A stretch of DNA of 36,341 nt from the IMG/VR virus record IMGVR_UViG_3300013307_000177, positions 1 through 36,341 of that record. One strand, given 5' to 3'. Within the stretch, counting starts at the first letter, position 1. Each line of letters opens with the position of its first letter. This DNA comes from a virus. The notes under the pieces were generated by a model. The model was not told the DNA's origin. It did not search any database and saw only the letters and a list, made by a program, of their open reading frames with translations. Position numbers and translations under genes: made by a program. Positions 9,824 to 35,965 of this stretch are shown piece after piece.

Positions 9824-10251
9824 TTTTCTGTGAACTTCTTCTGTGCAGTTTCCTTATCCCCGATCATGAAGATGGAGTAAGGATCTTCGCCTTCGGAGTG
9901 GTGAGGCGCAAAGATACGTTCACCGGCGATGCGGAAGAACTCACAAGCTTCGTGGATCTCGACTTCAAGCAGACGATCCAAGAGCCACCGAGTCCAGGCG
10001 GTCCGATTGTACGCGGCAGGCGGCACCGGAAAGAGGTGATTGACCCTGTAGTCGGGCGTGAGGTTCTGAAGATCAGGGTCATAGGAGTTGGTTGTCAGAG
10101 TAGTGACGATGAACGTCAGACCCTTCGATCCCTGGCCGCGATCCTTATATCGCAGAACATAGTTCCACCCTGGCTTGTACTCAAGGTTGTCAACCAGCTC
10201 TTCGAGGATGGTCGGCCAGGGTGATTCTTGAACAGCGATCTTCTCACTCAC
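9820..10251 (-). CDS. Hypothetical protein (143 aa)
   Basis: This is a soluble protein with no motif I can name. It contains GSKGLTFIVTTLTTNSYDP and DYRVNHLFPVPPAAYN, then a helical region with WTRWLLDRLLEVEIHEACEF. Proteins of this type are common in actinophages next to recombination nucleases, but I know no function. GTG 10251 overlaps the preceding stop (GTGA) and its own stop overlaps the nuclease start the same way, so it is translationally coupled to the Cas4-like nuclease and may act with it. Confidence 0.65.
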   Translation of the reverse strand: MSEKIAVQESPWPTILEELVDNLEYKPGWNYVLRYKDRGQGSKGLTFIVTTLTTNSYDPDLQNLTPDYRVNHLFPVPPAAYNRTAWTRWLLDRLLEVEIHEACEFFRIAGERIFAPHHSEGEDPYSIFMIGDKETAQKKFTEK

Positions 10252-10442
10252 TTGATGTACCTCTTATTCATAAGGCCGATCTCCGGTGTCCACATTCCAG
10301 CACAAGCAGGTATGTTTTCGAGAGGTGTGTCAACAGCAAGTACTAGTGTGCATTTCGGACACTGATAAAGATCAGGAGCTGCAGGTATCTCTACCCAATT
10401 ATGGGTACGCGCTCGCTTCCAGTCTTCAGGCTGTGTTGACAC
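10248..10442 (-). CDS. Small zinc-ribbon-like protein (64 aa)
   Basis: The protein contains YQCPKC and a later PACAGMW, a possible zinc site with three cysteines. I chose GTG 10442 because it overlaps the stop of the WhiB reading frame by one base (TAGTG) and has GAGG a few bases upstream. An in-frame GTG at 10514 would add residues that only mirror the WhiB coding sequence in another frame. The coupling to WhiB supports both being translated. The function is unknown. Confidence 0.6.
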   Translation of the reverse strand: MSTQPEDWKRARTHNWVEIPAAPDLYQCPKCTLVLAVDTPLENIPACAGMWTPEIGLMNKRYIK

Positions 10443-10672
10443 TACTTCCTCTTCTCGATCTTCCCAGCCCACATACCTTCCCTGGACCGGGTACGCTCTT
10501 TGTAATCCTCGCACTGAGCGCGTACGTTACAGCTAATGCAAATGAGTTGTCCTTCGTCTAACGGTTGACCCTTCTCTGGAAACCAAGGGTCTTTCGCGTC
10601 AGGGTCTAGGCGCTTGTTGGGGGCTTTGCCGCGACAGGCGGCGTGGGCTTTCCAGGGCTCGTCTTCGAAGAT
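10442..10672 (-). CDS. WhiB-family Fe-S transcription regulator, no canonical start codon
   Basis: This frame encodes a complete WhiB core: PWKAHAACRG, then PWFPEKG, CISCNVRAQC and REGMWAGK, with cysteines spaced C-x31-C-x2-C-x5-C. WhiB proteins bind a 4Fe-4S cluster and the primary sigma factor and regulate transcription; phage versions such as WhiBTM4 repress host whiB genes. No ATG, GTG or TTG occurs in frame for at least 45 codons upstream of AACRG. The boundary given uses an ATC codon at 10672, which would give 76 aa, a normal phage WhiB length. The frame lies -1 relative to the 162-residue gene above it and overlaps it by 67 bp. It may be made from a rare start, by frameshifting from that gene, or be broken by an indel. 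The family is sure; the start is not. Confidence 0.75.
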   Translation of the reverse strand: MFEDEPWKAHAACRGKAPNKRLDPDAKDPWFPEKGQPLDEGQLICISCNVRAQCEDYKERTRSREGMWAGKIEKRK

Positions 10673-11094
10673 GAACTTTGCGAGGAGTCCTCTGGACTTT
10701 GCTCCGTTGTCTTCGGAGGTTGAGGCTCGTCCTCGTTCGACTCGCTGTCCTTCCCACTCGCCCTGACCGCAGCCTCGAGCTTCTCCGTCGGGAGAACTTG
10801 ATCTGGGAGGGCAGGGGTCTCCGATTGCACCTGCACAGCGCTCTGCTGGGACTCCGAGGAGGTCACAGATTCCTGTGCAGATGAGTCTTTTGGGGCCGGC
10901 GTCAGAACTTCCTCCACCTCCTCTTCATCCGACTCCTTGATGTGCGGCGAAAGGTCCTTAAAGTTCGGACCAGGTTGAGAGAACTTCATGAACGGAGTCA
11001 AGACTCTGGGCTGTGCTTCTTCCTCAGGCATGAGGTGGATTCTCCTAGCGGTCGGGTCTGTGTGGGGCGACCATACGTCCCCGGTGTTTGACAT
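10606..11094 (-). CDS. Disordered acidic Ser/Pro/Glu-rich protein (162 aa)
   Basis: After a short N-terminal segment (MSNTGDVWSPHTDPTARRI) the protein is low-complexity, rich in Ser, Glu, Gln and Pro (EEEVEEVLTPAPKDSS, then SSQSSSSKTSPGKP) and is predicted to be disordered. ATG 11094 follows AAGG by 6 nt. The stop at 10606 lies inside the WhiB frame, so the last 22 codons are read in two frames. It may be a stand-alone unstructured protein or the N-terminal extension of a frameshifted WhiB fusion. I recognise no family. Confidence 0.6.
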   Translation of the reverse strand: MSNTGDVWSPHTDPTARRIHLMPEEEAQPRVLTPFMKFSQPGPNFKDLSPHIKESDEEEVEEVLTPAPKDSSAQESVTSSESQQSAVQVQSETPALPDQVLPTEKLEAAVRASGKDSESNEDEPQPPKTTEQSPEDSSQSSSSKTSPGKPTPPVAAKPPTSA

Positions 11095-28538: not shown

Positions 28539-31406
28539 CTATCGGGCCGACCGCTGTAGCCGCTTTCCAAGGTGCTCAACCACACGCCCCAGGTCTTCGT
28601 CTCCGTCAACCTGAACTGTGTCCAGCCCATGCCGAACAGGGGAATCGGTGCGAATCCCCACTCCGAGCAACGTGATCTGATCACGCTTACAGAGCTGTAG
28701 CTGTCGCAACAGGACTTCTAGTTCCTCTTCTTTGTTCGCGGCTGGGAACTTGCCGTCGGTGTAGTAGAGGAGAATCTTGTCGGTAGCTTCTACCTTTTCG
28801 AGTTCTTTGCGTCCGAACTCCATCGCGTGACCATCGAGGTTACCTCCGAGGCCGATAAGGTTTCGGACAGCATCTTTCGCGGTCTCGTTCCATGGCTCAT
28901 CCCACGTCTTGATGTGGTGTAGGTGGAGTGCGAACTTGCGGGTGCGTGAGCCATCAGGATTCTTCGAGCCGTGCGCACTGTGAGCCGTGATCGAGAACGG
29001 GATACCGACACGACTGAGCAGTTCAGCCTGAGCGAACGCCGCACGCTTGACGAGGGCAAGGTTATTACCGAGGTTGGAAGAACTAATGTCAATCATAATC
29101 TTGACTGCGTAGTCCTTCTTTCCAGGCAACCGCTTCTTAGCAAACAGCCGGTCGTCACCGCTCCAGGCACGACGACCAAGAACCTTTGTGTTCACTCGAC
29201 CAGACCGTCTGTTGCGCTCTAGTTCGGCGATCTTGTTGTCTGTGAAGATACGCCGCGTCTTGAGAAGAACAGGCCCCAATGCTTGCTCAGGGATATCCAT
29301 GTCACAGATGACGCCGTATGCCATGAGATCTTCTCGTTCGTCCTTGGTGATATTGGATAAGTCAGGTGCCCATCCGAACTCACTCGGCGCGTAGGTATGC
29401 TCTACGATCTGATCGACCCCGACACTAGGAGTTTCGAAGTACATACCCTGCAGGATAGCCGTAGTCAGCGCTTGCTTCTCGCTCATATCGCCGCGCAGGT
29501 CAGCAGTCTTTTCCTCTATCTTCTCGTGGAGATGATTGGTAGCTGTCTCGACATCTTCAGGTGAACCCCAAGGCATATCGGTGAGGTCGATACCGCCTAG
29601 CCCTTTGTCTGCTCCGGATTCGATGAGATCGGGTCCTCGAGACTCGCCGCCTTCGCTGTCGGGTCTTCGATCTGAGTCTGCCTCATTACCATGATCAGGT
29701 TGTGGAACGATGTCCGGCTCACTGGAGGAACTAGAATCCTGAACCGAGTCCTCAGAAGTTCCCCCTCTTTGATCGTCCCCGAGACTGTCGTCAGGTTGAT
29801 CAGAGACTTGCCCGTCTTCTGGATCGTCGTGTTCTCCAGAGTCGTTGCCGTCAGCCTCCCCCACGCTTGACCGCCCCTCATCTTCAGAGCTCCCAGCATC
29901 AGTATCCGTGTCGTCCGTGTCGGATGCTCCATCAGACTTTTCAGCATCATCCGATGCCGGACGATCCTCACTGCCTCCTTCGCCCTCCGACTCTTCGGGA
30001 CCTCCAGCATTGGATGCTCCCTCGCCAGACTCTTCAGGTACTCCGTCTGAATCTGCATCTACTGACTCCTCCGGAGATTGCTGCATTCCTTCAACCATCT
30101 CTGACTTGCCAGCATCTGGAGATGCCAGTCCTTGGCTTCCTCCGCCGCTTCGGTCGCCTTGCTCGTCGCTACCGTCATCTCGATCGCTTTCAGCAGAAGG
30201 TCCGCCCCGTCCCTCATCGCTTGCGGCTGACTCTTCATCTCCTGAAGTTCCTGGTTCGCCTTCTCCGCTTCCTTGAGGAGGCGTCTCACTCGAATCCACT
30301 CCAGGTGATTGAGAAGAAGACCCATCCTCACCGCTAGGCGCTTGATCAGAGAGTCCCCCGTCATCAGAACCCTCGGAGGTCCCATCGCCAGAAACTTCGT
30401 CTGGATCAACTCCTCCTTTGTCGGTGCCTTCGGAGGGGTCTCCCGATTCTTCTCGGTCGTCTTTGGACGGACTCTCGGAGGTCCCTGGGTCATTGCTCTT
30501 CTCCTCTTCTCGTTCTTCCTCGGTCTTGAAGTAACCGAGTTCTCGCAACCGAGCTAACGCTGGAAAGGCGAGGTTGTAGGTGTCAGCCGCAGTAGAGGCT
30601 GCTCGAACATCCGTGATGATCTGTTGAAGTTTCTTATCGGTGAGCAATTCACCGATTGCTGGATGGAAGTACTGTTGCCAGCCGGGATAATCGGCTGCCT
30701 CCATGTACAGAGCGAGTGATGCTTGGCTGTTAAGAGGAGCCTCATCCCATTTCTGAAGTTGAAAGTTTTGGTCGGGGATTCCGTTGGCAAGCAGATTGTA
30801 GGTGTCCGCAACCATCATCTTGCGAGTGCCCTTGCGCTTCCGAAACATATTCAGGTCTACCCGTGCATCCTCGAGACTATTAACCAGCGAGGGCAGGTAA
30901 GGGCTAATGATGTTTGCGAGGCCGAGGTAACTACTAGTTAGCCTCTTGTCACGGAATCGTGCCTTGATGCGCTCAGCGAACTCGCCGCCCCACTCTTCAA
31001 TCGCTTGCTTCAGAGCTTCCTGCTTGTCGTGCTCAGTCGTAGGAGCGAAGGTGTCTTCTGCGATATGGCTGATCTCGTGGTAGATGTTGACCAGTATCTC
31101 TTCGCGGGCCTTGCATGCTGGACAAGACTGGAGACCAGTCTGCTTGTCACGCTTGCCGCACATGAACCGATCATGAGGTGTGAGATCACCAAGTGCGATG
31201 GGAGGCTGGTAGTAGATGACGTTACCGTCAGTACGCGGAGCACCGGATGCGATCTCGACGCGCACCTTGCTGTTCCCGGTCAGGGCACGTGCGTATCCAG
31301 ACAGTTGAAACTGCATAGATCGAAAGACTTTGACAGCCGTCTGAGCACGCACAACAAGTTCATCTTGCTGTGGGCTACTGTTGTCTGTCGTTCTGAGATG
31401 CATCAT
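28539..31406 (-). CDS. CobT-like protein: HExxH region, acidic linker, VWA domain (955 aa)
   Basis: Three parts are visible. Residues 1-290 contain C83, C95 and C98 and the zinc-peptidase-like motif IYHEISHIAED (H110, E111, H114). Residues about 295-600 are a low-complexity acidic linker of Asp, Glu, Ser and Gly. Residues about 600-955 hold a von Willebrand A domain with a metal-ion-dependent adhesion site DISSS (D at about 773) and ILLYYTDGKFP. This is the CobT cobaltochelatase subunit layout; CobT and related VWA proteins work with MoxR/CobS-type AAA+ ATPases. No such ATPase gene is in the window. Two ATGs stand in tandem at 31406 and 31403. In phages CobS/CobT pairs have no established role; chelatase activity should not be assumed. 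Confidence 0.75.
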   Translation of the reverse strand: MMHLRTTDNSSPQQDELVVRAQTAVKVFRSMQFQLSGYARALTGNSKVRVEIASGAPRTDGNVIYYQPPIALGDLTPHDRFMCGKRDKQTGLQSCPACKAREEILVNIYHEISHIAEDTFAPTTEHDKQEALKQAIEEWGGEFAERIKARFRDKRLTSSYLGLANIISPYLPSLVNSLEDARVDLNMFRKRKGTRKMMVADTYNLLANGIPDQNFQLQKWDEAPLNSQASLALYMEAADYPGWQQYFHPAIGELLTDKKLQQIITDVRAASTAADTYNLAFPALARLRELGYFKTEEEREEEKSNDPGTSESPSKDDREESGDPSEGTDKGGVDPDEVSGDGTSEGSDDGGLSDQAPSGEDGSSSQSPGVDSSETPPQGSGEGEPGTSGDEESAASDEGRGGPSAESDRDDGSDEQGDRSGGGSQGLASPDAGKSEMVEGMQQSPEESVDADSDGVPEESGEGASNAGGPEESEGEGGSEDRPASDDAEKSDGASDTDDTDTDAGSSEDEGRSSVGEADGNDSGEHDDPEDGQVSDQPDDSLGDDQRGGTSEDSVQDSSSSSEPDIVPQPDHGNEADSDRRPDSEGGESRGPDLIESGADKGLGGIDLTDMPWGSPEDVETATNHLHEKIEEKTADLRGDMSEKQALTTAILQGMYFETPSVGVDQIVEHTYAPSEFGWAPDLSNITKDEREDLMAYGVICDMDIPEQALGPVLLKTRRIFTDNKIAELERNRRSGRVNTKVLGRRAWSGDDRLFAKKRLPGKKDYAVKIMIDISSSNLGNNLALVKRAAFAQAELLSRVGIPFSITAHSAHGSKNPDGSRTRKFALHLHHIKTWDEPWNETAKDAVRNLIGLGGNLDGHAMEFGRKELEKVEATDKILLYYTDGKFPAANKEEELEVLLRQLQLCKRDQITLLGVGIRTDSPVRHGLDTVQVDGDEDLGRVVEHLGKRLQRSAR

Positions 31407-31809: not shown

Positions 31810-32856
31810 TCAGTGACAGGGCTTGGAAAGCCGTGCCGTGAGCGTCGGGCAGTGGTGATGCGGAGGACCGTGACGCGGGCAGGAGTGTGTCTTATGACAC
31901 GGGCACGGCTTGTTCGTCGTGTGAACGACATACCGCTGGTGCTTCGCCCAGCCATGGCTTCCGTTGATGCGGTTCGGCAGCAGGTACTGCACGTTGCCGA
32001 CCTTCTTGCCAGTGAGGTGCGCAACCCAGGTGGTGCGGTTGGGGTGGGTGACGTGACCCCTCACCTTGTCATGGTTCCAGAAGAACCGCACCTTGTCCAT
32101 GAAGCAATTGCACTTGTCAGTAACCTGAGCACTGGCATGAGCGTGGCGCTTCTTGACGTGCGGCGGAGGCGGAGGTGGCGGCGGCGTACAGCCGTGTCGT
32201 CCCTTCACTCCCACGTTCCACGACTGGACGATCGAGTAGTCCTGCGAGTGGTGCTCGCCAGCCTTCCGCGACAGTCCATTCTTCTTGATCGAAGCCAGAA
32301 GGTTCTCGTCTGCCTGGCTGTCGATCAGGTACAGGTCAGCCTGGTACTTGGCTCGATGACACTTCGGCGGCGCCGGACACAGGGTGCGCAGGTTGAGACT
32401 GATGTCGGTCTTGCTCTCTGACTTCCAGGTCTCGCCCGTGAGCCACTCGGCATCGGTGATGCGATTCGGAATCGAGAAGTCCGGCTTGTTCACCTGGAAG
32501 CACTCCGCCACCTTGTACGGCTCGAAGCCGGTCTGAGGTGGTGTCGTATCACGGCAATCTGCTGCCGTTGATGCCCTGTAGTCGTTCTTTGGGTCGCCCA
32601 CAACGTGCGCGACTCCTCGCCAGATCCCGTCGGACTTCCAGTACTTCGGGAAGTGACCCTTCCCATTGCTCAGATGAGCTTGGAGCGAGGCATTATCGAC
32701 CGTCTCGAAGACATACGGGTTCGTGTCACTCGCAGTGCGATGACAGATCGAAGTCTTGTGGTCACCTCCCCCGGTGGCGTTCGCATCTGACAGACCGACG
32801 GTCATCAGTGCGATTGCCAGTGCCGCCCCCATGGCGGCGTAGATGGCGCTCCTCAT
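31810..32856 (-). CDS. Exported protein with CHRT motif, oligo-Pro and His/Cys-rich tail (348 aa)
   Basis: The N-terminal 28 residues form a signal peptide (MRSAIYAAMGAALAIALMTV, likely cut after ANA), so the product should leave the host cell by the Sec route. The mature protein begins with HKTSICHRTASDTNPYVFET, a motif known from secreted actinobacterial proteins. A run of eight Pro (about 227-234) separates it from a C-terminal half ending in a Cys/His-rich stretch (CPCHKTHSCPRHGPPHHHC) that may bind metal. There are many cysteines, suggesting disulfides. GGAG lies 8 nt before ATG 32856. Strong hairpins lie upstream and downstream, so it is probably transcribed alone. Its role is unknown; it may modify the host envelope or environment. 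Confidence 0.65.
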   Translation of the reverse strand: MRSAIYAAMGAALAIALMTVGLSDANATGGGDHKTSICHRTASDTNPYVFETVDNASLQAHLSNGKGHFPKYWKSDGIWRGVAHVVGDPKNDYRASTAADCRDTTPPQTGFEPYKVAECFQVNKPDFSIPNRITDAEWLTGETWKSESKTDISLNLRTLCPAPPKCHRAKYQADLYLIDSQADENLLASIKKNGLSRKAGEHHSQDYSIVQSWNVGVKGRHGCTPPPPPPPPHVKKRHAHASAQVTDKCNCFMDKVRFFWNHDKVRGHVTHPNRTTWVAHLTGKKVGNVQYLLPNRINGSHGWAKHQRYVVHTTNKPCPCHKTHSCPRHGPPHHHCPTLTARLSKPCH

Positions 32857-32966: not shown

Positions 32967-33710
32967 TCAGCAGCGTCCCTCTCGATCGAAGCAGCGCACG
33001 CCCTTGTTGTCGCCAGAGGTGTAGGCGAACTTGGTGCCCAGAGCGATGTGATCGAGCCAGTAGGTGGCGTCACCCACGTCCATCACCACGTAGTCCGAAG
33101 TCACCCGCTGGTTGGGGTTGGCCGCGACGTAGTTCTGCCAGGCGGTGTTCGTGCCATCAGCTGCGTAGAAGCCGCCGGTGTCGCCGGTGACGTAGAAGCC
33201 GCAGTCGTGCTTGGCCCTAGTGAAGTCGCTCCGAGTCCAGCGCGAGTCCAAGGTGAGCGTCCTTGAGCAGTACTCGGCCGACAAGTACGCGATGTCACCG
33301 TTGAGGAACTCCACTGAGATCCTCGGCGCACCACCGCCGACAGCACTGGCTGCCTTGCGATCGAAGCTCAGGTTGTGGACCTTCGATGCTGCGATGTTTC
33401 GGTCAGTGCTTCGGTCGGTGTAGAAGAGCGAGTAGTAGTTCCCATCCGGTGTGCCAGCAGGGAGCTGCACACGCAGGGCCTTGTCTCCTCGATCCAGAGG
33501 CGAGTCGACGCCGTAGCTCGACCAGCGCGCTGAACCTTCTTCGGCAGGCTCTGACCCTGTGGTGTTGTCGTAGAACCACACCTCTCGATGTCCTACCTGA
33601 GCCGGGTTCGTGATCTTCACCTCTGCAGGCGATGCTCCAGCAACGCCTGCGATTCCAGCAGCGAGGGCCAGGGCCGCGCCTCCTGCGATGAGTGCTGCGG
33701 TCTTTCTCAT
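32967..33710 (-). CDS. Exported protein, second of the cassette (247 aa)
   Basis: A clear signal peptide is visible: MRKTAALIAGGAALALAAGI with cleavage likely after VAGA. The mature part is beta-rich with VWFYDNTTGSEPAEEGS, LRVQLPAGTPDGNYYSLFYT, ISVEFLNGDIAYLSAEYCS and ends in two cysteines (RCFDREGRC); four cysteines in total suggest two disulfides. No catalytic motif is recognised. The fold may be jelly-roll-like. Upstream is a 15-bp hairpin and a short palindrome near 33748, and downstream another 15-bp hairpin, so it forms its own unit. A role outside the cell is inferred from the signal peptide only. Confidence 0.65.
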   Translation of the reverse strand: MRKTAALIAGGAALALAAGIAGVAGASPAEVKITNPAQVGHREVWFYDNTTGSEPAEEGSARWSSYGVDSPLDRGDKALRVQLPAGTPDGNYYSLFYTDRSTDRNIAASKVHNLSFDRKAASAVGGGAPRISVEFLNGDIAYLSAEYCSRTLTLDSRWTRSDFTRAKHDCGFYVTGDTGGFYAADGTNTAWQNYVAANPNQRVTSDYVVMDVGDATYWLDHIALGTKFAYTSGDNKGVRCFDREGRC

Positions 33711-33820: not shown

Positions 33821-34363
33821 CTAACAGCCGCCAGAGTCCCAGTCACTGTGATGGATGGTAAGCCGGGCGCACTGGTTGATGTTGCCGCCAGGAACGAAAA
33901 TCTCCGTGAAGTACCAGCCGATCTTCAACGTCGCAGCATCCGGCATCCCGATCTCCAGGTCCCACGAACGGCACTGACCCGGGTCCAGGTCGGTGTTGGT
34001 GGTCGACCACTTCACCACCCCATTCTCGTTCCAGATCGACAGACCCTTCCCGTCGATGCCCTGGTAGGCGAGTCCTCCGCTGGCTGCGCAGATCTTCACC
34101 GACTCGACGTAGAATCCGACACTGTACTGCTGTCGGATTCGGTAGTTGCCCTGGAGCTGACCGGTCCCAGCGAAGTCACTGTGGGTGACAATCGGACCCC
34201 AGTCGTAGGCCCTCTTCGCCTGGTGATGAGCAGCCGTCGTCTTCACGGCCTGATGAGCGACGGCGTGATGCCCCGTCGCAGTCTGTGCTGGTTGGGCTAC
34301 TGACACTTGAATGCCAGCGCACGCAGCGACTGCTGCGATGAGTAATACGATTTTGTTACGCAT
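33821..34363 (-). CDS. Exported protein or lipoprotein, third of the cassette (180 aa)
   Basis: The N-terminus is a signal peptide (MRNKIVLLIAAVAACAGIQV). VAAC at residues 12-15 fits a lipobox, so it may be a lipoprotein; cleavage after VSVA is an alternative. A His/Ala-rich stretch (HHAVAHQAVKTTAAHHQAKR) follows, then a beta-rich domain with HSDFAGTGQLQGNYRI, DPGQCRSWDLEIGMP and KIGWYFTEIFVPGG. Four cysteines lie in the mature domain. AGGAGG lies 4 nt before ATG 34363, so the longer in-frame start is rejected. It follows the next gene upstream by 8 bp, probably as a two-gene operon, and is closed by a 15-bp hairpin. The function is unknown. Confidence 0.65.
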   Translation of the reverse strand: MRNKIVLLIAAVAACAGIQVSVAQPAQTATGHHAVAHQAVKTTAAHHQAKRAYDWGPIVTHSDFAGTGQLQGNYRIRQQYSVGFYVESVKICAASGGLAYQGIDGKGLSIWNENGVVKWSTTNTDLDPGQCRSWDLEIGMPDAATLKIGWYFTEIFVPGGNINQCARLTIHHSDWDSGGC

Positions 34364-34371
34364 GAAGCCTC

Positions 34372-34752
34372 CTAGATGTCCTGTCTTGGACCGCAAGTTG
34401 GGTTGCAGCGTTCCTTGTAGACAGCGATCTGGTATCCGTTCCGCCACTTGTAGAACACAGAAACCTCCCAGCCGCCACCGTTGTCATACTGATCTTCGTG
34501 ACCAGCGATCCGGTAGGTGTAGATCTTACCTGTAGTGCCGTCCGGGTAGGCGTAGTTCGTGTTCCACCCCGGAGTGCAGTCACAGATGCCGTTCTCCACG
34601 TTGGACTTGGTGAGGCCATCGCCGACGAGCTGACAACAGTACTCGTCGTTGGTGAACGAACCGCTGGGGGTTCCAGCCTGAGCAGGCGCAGCACTCAACG
34701 CGAGCGAGCCAGTCAGGATGATGCCCGCCAGAAGGGCTGACAACTTCTTCAT
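34372..34752 (-). CDS. Small exported Cys-rich protein, fourth of the cassette (126 aa)
   Basis: The signal peptide is clear: MKKLSALLAGIILTGSLALS with cleavage likely after AQA (residue 26). The mature 100 residues carry six cysteines (EYCCQ, GICDCTPG, ERCNPTC), suggesting three disulfides in a compact secreted fold, and many Tyr, Gly and Asn (DNGGGWEVSVFYKWRNGYQI). AAGGAAGGAAA lies before ATG 34752. A hairpin precedes it and its stop is 8 bp from the next exported-protein gene, so they are probably transcribed together. I recognise no family; small secreted toxins or inhibitors are among possibilities, without support. Confidence 0.65.
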   Translation of the reverse strand: MKKLSALLAGIILTGSLALSAAPAQAGTPSGSFTNDEYCCQLVGDGLTKSNVENGICDCTPGWNTNYAYPDGTTGKIYTYRIAGHEDQYDNGGGWEVSVFYKWRNGYQIAVYKERCNPTCGPRQDI

Positions 34753-35139: not shown

Positions 35140-35628
35140 TTACTCCTTCGAGTACTGATTGCGTCGTTGCCACGGCCTACGCTGATCCGCAAGTCGCAAG
35201 TTGTCGTTGTTTGTTTCTGGCCAGAGATGTGTTGGGTTGCAACACAACTTATGATTGCACTGATGGTCCACGATGTACCCCCTAGGAGGCATCCCGATCC
35301 AGTGCTCAAAGGAGATACGGTGACTATACGCCCATATGCGCTGGTTGTCAACAAGCCCCAGCCAGAAGCGTCCGTAACCCTTGTCATGTGTGCCGCCTGT
35401 CCACAGCCAACACGGCGTCTTGTAATCAATGAGCTGTGGCTCAACCTTGGCGAGGAATCGCAGAAGCATCTTGTGATCCATCTTGGTCTGATTGAGACGA
35501 GATAGTGAAGCTGGATTGTTCCAATGGCCTGGCTCAGGAGGGAGCGCCGCTAATTGCTCTCTTTTGAGCGCCAGGTTATAATGCTCCAATATTCCATCCC
35601 AATCTCGGAACGGATCAAGACTGTCCAC
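35140..35628 (-). CDS. HNH endonuclease (about 162 aa, start uncertain)
   Basis: The HNH homing-type pattern is visible: CWLWTGGTHDKGYGRFW, YSHRISFEHWIG, GYIVDHQCNHKLCCNPTHLW and a closing NNDNLRLAD. The His and Cys/Asn positions in VDHQCNHKLCCNPTHL are those of the metal-binding HNH fold, and the C-x-x-WTG start is common in phage HNH proteins. It may be a free-standing homing endonuclease, spreading itself between phages. The region before the core is open for about 85 codons and overlaps the upstream gene; GTG 35628 is a compromise, with TTG 35589 and ATG 35484 as alternatives. Confidence 0.75.
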   Translation of the reverse strand: MDSLDPFRDWDGILEHYNLALKREQLAALPPEPGHWNNPASLSRLNQTKMDHKMLLRFLAKVEPQLIDYKTPCWLWTGGTHDKGYGRFWLGLVDNQRIWAYSHRISFEHWIGMPPRGYIVDHQCNHKLCCNPTHLWPETNNDNLRLADQRRPWQRRNQYSKE

Positions 35629-35965
35629 GTTGCAGATCCGCCTTCCTCTGAACGAGCTCGGGGAGGGATGCTTTGCCAGCACGCTTGGACTTCGGATCAG
35701 TCCCCAGCATGATCCCCTCCAGTTTGTCGAACTCATTGAGGACATGATCGACGCCAGCCTGCATCGCCTCTTTGATGGTCTCGTTGTAGGAAGCGAGCGT
35801 GTCGGCCACCTGTACTGAAATCTTCTTGTCGAATTGAGTCTCGATCATCTTCTCGATCTCAGCGCGTTCGTGTTTCAGATCACGAAGAATTGTTTTAAGA
35901 TCACGAAGGGTCTCGTTGGCCTCTCGGGTTGCAATCCGCAACTCTTCAATTTTCTGTTCACTCAT
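35615..35965 (-). CDS. Coiled-coil hypothetical protein (116 aa)
   Basis: The first 60 residues form a charged helix with heptad character (EELRIATREANETLRDLKTI, then LKHERAEIEKMIETQF), then another helix (ASYNETIKEAMQAGVDHVLN) and a basic end. Such proteins are frequent in Streptomyces phages with no known role. ATG 35965 forms an ATGA overlap with the upstream stop, supporting the start. The last bases overlap possible starts of the HNH gene. Confidence 0.6.
   Translation of the reverse strand: MSEQKIEELRIATREANETLRDLKTILRDLKHERAEIEKMIETQFDKKISVQVADTLASYNETIKEAMQAGVDHVLNEFDKLEGIMLGTDPKSKRAGKASLPELVQRKADLQRGQS

Follow-up and report, generated by a model that had tools for sequence, protein, structure and literature searches.

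Among tailed phages, the most familiar programmed frameshifts are those of the tail assembly chaperones (G/GT), in which a -1 slip at an X XXY YYZ heptamer yields two proteins, one short and one extended at its C-terminus. In dnaX of E. coli, a slippery heptamer is combined with an upstream Shine-Dalgarno-like stimulator, and the slip soon reaches a stop, so that the product is truncated. A review describes C_CCA_AAG, a close relative of CCCAAAA, as a sequence with a high tendency to shift in E. coli (PMC5009743). Phage WhiB proteins have been surveyed without mention of frameshifting or of start codons (PMC8612146); the WhiB of mycobacteriophage TM4, considered here from the literature alone, has four cysteines and a G-W turn, as does the protein described below (PMC8612146). 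The PRFect paper mentions neither WhiB nor Gordonia, and literature searches combining WhiB and frameshifting, which covered papers readable without subscription, returned no earlier report.

In this study, we describe a locus in a virus record of 36,341 bases (IMG/VR IMGVR_UViG_3300013307_000177), the whole of which is referred to as the window, where a WhiB protein is very probably made as a fusion by programmed -1 ribosomal frameshifting, the best explanation of those considered. As in G/GT, the slip would occur at an X XXY YYZ heptamer and yield a short and a C-terminally extended protein, and as in dnaX the heptamer has a Shine-Dalgarno-like element upstream. Unlike G/GT, the locus lies between a DNA methylase or RusA gene on one side and a Cas4/RecB-type exonuclease on the other, and not upstream of the tape measure gene, a position on which it was rejected as a tail assembly chaperone; its extension consists of a four-cysteine (C4) region and WhiB, with a dual-coded overlap. 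Unlike dnaX, the slip would give a longer product bearing a recognisable domain. The features of the locus are:

10606-11031, minus strand: 0-frame ORF, with a short N-terminal part common to both predicted products, then a Ser/Pro/Glu-rich disordered tail
10908-10924, minus strand: purine-rich tract AGAGGAGGTGGAGGAAG, Shine-Dalgarno-like and 5' of the slippery site, a putative stimulator of frameshifting
10888-10894, minus strand: slippery heptamer, read in phase as C CCA AAA in the 0 frame and again as CCC AAA in the -1 frame
10828-10883, minus strand: possible downstream stem (weak evidence), with an outer stem of 11 bp separated from the heptamer by 4 nt
10769-10879, minus strand: region of the C4 motif (C-x3-C ... 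C ... CGxGE), sharing its DNA with the disordered 0-frame tail
10442-10888, minus strand: predicted continuation of the fusion in the -1 frame once slippage has occurred (RLICTGIC...WhiB), ending at the TAG at 10444-10442
10451-10654, minus strand: WhiB domain (PF02467; PDB matches WhiB, WhiB1, WhiB3 and WhiB7)
10248-10442, minus strand: next gene, 64 aa, a CxxC protein whose GTG overlaps the WhiB stop TAG

The presence of WhiB in the region 10442-10672, recognised in a preliminary description of this DNA, was confirmed by Pfam (PF02467, E=6.6e-10, 39.8 bits against a cut-off of 23.6) and by the Wbl signature of four cysteines (C...CxxC...C) and a G-[IVM]-W turn, here GMWAG. Pfam WhiB was matched in 15/15 family members tested. 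On the minus strand, its frame stays open between 10924 and 10442 and lies, as had been reported, at offset -1 relative to the disordered ORF at 10606-11094. At least 45 codons without a start had been counted; ATG, GTG and TTG are in fact absent over 96 codons before the first WhiB cysteine. Among ordinary cellular WhiB loci, which were the sole yield of a scan of genome contigs and served as controls, 78 of 81 have a start at most 38 codons from the first cysteine. The WhiB genes of phages Pupper, Fruitloop and phiGD23-1, unlike that of the window, also have a start codon nearby and carry no C4 extension. The overlap of the next gene's GTG with the WhiB stop at 10442, likewise noted before, is consistent with translational coupling. 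The 64-aa protein encoded at 10248-10442 contains YQCPKCT (CxxC), and in several relatives the gene after WhiB also starts at or adjoining the WhiB stop.

The ORF overlapped by the WhiB frame had been described as a Ser/Glu-rich gene of 162 residues. Its disordered character holds, and its length is more likely 141 aa from ATG 11031 than 162 aa from ATG 11094, because ATG 11031 has a Shine-Dalgarno-like site (AGGAGA) and fits the protein length and N-terminus of the relatives, which have a DFRP-type N-terminus in common. The 0-frame protein of the window matched no PHROG or Pfam entry. That of TIN3 matches phrog_6890 ('endonuclease'), and in RefSeq records including L002, L003 and L018 the ORF upstream of WhiB is labelled 'endonuclease'; the label is doubtful since the window protein has no Pfam support, and its assignment to phrog_6890 was rejected for want of a sequence match.

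No convincing slippery heptamer had been found in the preliminary description. One is present about 220 nt upstream of the region first examined: C CCA AAA at 10894-10888, shortly after the open -1 frame begins. The X XXY YYZ pattern is retained in every relative inspected, as CCCAAAA in 16 lineages and CCCTTTA in 12, with no exceptions among about 28 lineages, so that an in-phase heptamer is conserved where the frame changes. In two of the phages, Orchid and GordTnk2, the heptamer directly follows a TGA and the -1 frame opens exactly at this point; it can therefore be entered only at the heptamer or later. As some lineages had been found by the heptamer pattern itself, 2.9 million viral contigs were also scanned for the -1 peptide in any synonymous coding. 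The scan for the PK[RS]L[IV]C type gave 11 true members, 11/11 with CCCAAAA, and one chance match, and that for the PFxC type gave five, 5/5 with CCCTTTA, and two chance matches; neither scan returned a true member with other codons at the heptamer. The other ORFs of the window, 7,028 codons in total, contain 7 in-phase heptamers of the X XXY YYZ pattern, none of them CCCAAAA or CCCTTTA.

We propose one gene with two products. Translation would begin upstream, probably at ATG 11031, and most ribosomes would pass C CCA AAA in frame and complete the 141-residue protein with its disordered Ser/Pro/Glu tail. Some would slip back by one base with both tRNAs, CCA AAA re-pairing on CCC AAA, probably aided by the upstream Shine-Dalgarno-like tract. 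The -1 frame product, of about 196 residues, would carry the same 48 N-terminal residues followed by the four-cysteine region, a linker and the WhiB domain. Sequence and comparison show the frame layout, the heptamer, the missing starts, selection on both frames, the conserved C4 region, the WhiB homology and the enriched Shine-Dalgarno-like element; that slippage takes place, and how often, is inferred, as are metal binding and a regulatory role. An identical fused protein would result from slippage during transcription, but this is very improbable: the site has only short runs, three C followed by four A or by three T, polymerases usually need longer ones to slip, and the exchange of CCCAAAA for CCCTTTA, which alters the residues (PK to PF), retains tandem-tRNA slippage and not a homopolymer.

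The family includes phages of Gordonia, Rhodococcus and Tsukamurella and IMG/VR contigs. Among phage relatives picked up by WhiB similarity, an upstream ORF with the WhiB frame at offset -1 was found in ReqiDocB7, GTE7, TIN2, TIN3, Damp, John316, Sombrero, PokyPuppy, Chelms, Camerico, Mbo2, Orchid, RobinSparkles, GordTnk2 and GMA3, and each of these 15 phages has exactly one in-phase CCCAAAA or CCCTTTA, located where the conserved -1 protein begins. The same layout and heptamer are seen in Jumbo, Katyusha, Amore2, Perlina and Reynauld. Many relatives had been picked by protein similarity without the heptamer as a criterion, among them the last two to be inspected, Reynauld and Perlina. A single-protein scan of IMG/VR found nothing, and alignment was used instead; five environmental lineages from IMG/VR (L162, L163, L164, L167 and L168) belong to the family, and IMG/VR contig L019 shares 52% identity with the window across the -1 product. 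Coverage of 80% or more of a C4-WhiB query was reached by about 90-114 phage records, a count that includes GenBank/RefSeq duplicates and a few ordinary WhiBs. Rejected as members were L160 (a pattern match) and L183-L185 (degenerate-pattern matches), which are chance matches without WhiB, and L031, whose WhiB looks related and which has no C4 region, no heptamer and an ATG start.

It had also been suggested that an ordinary whiB gene was broken here by a sequencing error or a natural indel. The source is a single metagenomic contig, but this reading is barely credible, given that dozens of independently sequenced isolates and contigs share the identical -1 offset and that both frames are under selection. 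A single fused frame, for which the relatives were checked, was seen in none of those inspected.

Selection on the two frames was assessed from substitution periodicity. In nine CS-type sequences, which are related to each other so that counts are not independent events, mismatch rates upstream of the heptamer were 0.32 at the 0-frame wobble position against 0.09 and 0.08; in the overlap region they were 0.10, 0.14 and 0.11, all three positions being held down; and past the 0-frame stop they were 0.21 at the -1-frame wobble position against 0.05 and 0.03. In 45-nt bins of the CS cluster, the 0-frame wobble rate was 0.34 immediately upstream of the heptamer and dropped to 0.05 immediately downstream of it. 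The frame switch is sharp and falls at the heptamer.

These data bear on the proposal, made earlier for an ATC at 10672, that WhiB is translated alone from a non-canonical or other internal start with no frameshift. The ATC codon is present in the window, and in a few relatives an ATG lies 5-10 codons upstream of the first cysteine of WhiB. We nevertheless consider this reading improbable, as the ATC is not conserved, most relatives have no canonical start at all, and an internal start leaves unexplained the conserved upstream C4 coding, the heptamer and the change of substitution frame there. The close ATG in ReqiDocB7, Perlina, GordTnk2, GMA3, Jumbo and Reynauld could give an additional short WhiB, and in some phages such an internally started WhiB may be a second product beside the fusion. 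Programmed -1 frameshifting to an N-terminally extended WhiB, also raised in the preliminary description, is strongly supported by the conserved heptamer and -1 offset.

The fusion had been pictured as a disordered protein joined to WhiB. A fusion is what the data support, but its extension is a conserved cysteine-containing region. The C4 cysteines (CxGxC, a third cysteine and the CG motif) are invariant in 20 aligned sequences, with WhiB following, and the dual-coded overlap spans roughly 145-310 nt. The C4 region had no Pfam match and no meaningful PHROG match; Pfam recognised only WhiB in the -1 product, and the solved-structure matches of this product were WhiB proteins. In the AlphaFold model, which has a predicted fold resembling WhiB complexes, block means were 84-94 for WhiB and pLDDT was about 50-58 (low confidence) for the C4 region. 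Judging by its cysteines, the C4 region probably binds metal. The WhiB domain of the fusion would be expected to hold an Fe-S cluster and to bind the sigma factor of the host; in Wbl proteins these are a [4Fe-4S] cluster and region 4 of sigma-A.

Upstream of the heptamer, a Shine-Dalgarno-like stimulator element is enriched overall: mean anti-SD pairing in the interval -22 to -6 was -7.9 kcal/mol, compared with -3.2 kcal/mol for random placements (17 sequences; 0/20,000). The window's best single anti-SD match is at -29 to -22, and the element is weak in some members, for example L163. The 90 nt downstream of the window heptamer fold with -31.0 kcal/mol (z=-1.9). Downstream folds differ between lineages and are plausible in the window, Orchid and GTE7; RNAalifold returned an empty consensus across lineages for this region, with no structure in common.

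Deposited annotations of these loci vary. The WhiB gene is unannotated in GTE7, TIN2, TIN3, Camerico, Orchid, PokyPuppy, Chelms and Amore2; WhiB fragments of 33 residues are annotated in Damp, John316 and Sombrero, and a 94-residue WhiB from an internal GTG in RobinSparkles. A short gene from an internal start is annotated in ReqiDocB7, GordTnk2, GMA3, Mbo2, Jumbo, Katyusha, Perlina and Reynauld.

Elsewhere on the minus strand of the window, the segment 31810-34752 encodes four predicted proteins whose N-termini are signal-peptide-like in sequence (31810-32856, 32967-33710, 33821-34447 and 34372-34752), which is unusual in a phage. The ends of a 955-aa protein at 28539-31406 look folded and flank a long low-complexity middle part rich in Ser/Asp/Glu/Gly, and an HNH-endonuclease-like protein (VDHQCNHKLCCNPTHLW) is encoded at 35140-35745.

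The conserved frameshift proposed here concerns a transcription-factor gene in phages of three host genera, and would mean that the gene needs correcting in roughly 100 deposited records, whose annotations omit WhiB or hold only its 3' part. The cysteine-containing region of the locus is also new, and over a long stretch the DNA encodes both a disordered tail and this conserved region. As a tentative and rather unlikely idea about function, the short disordered protein and the C4-WhiB fusion might be antagonists sharing an N-terminal interaction segment, the efficiency of slippage acting as a regulatory ratio switch. If so, slippage efficiency during infection would set how strongly host sigma-A transcription is redirected, and these phages would have a class of regulator produced by recoding.
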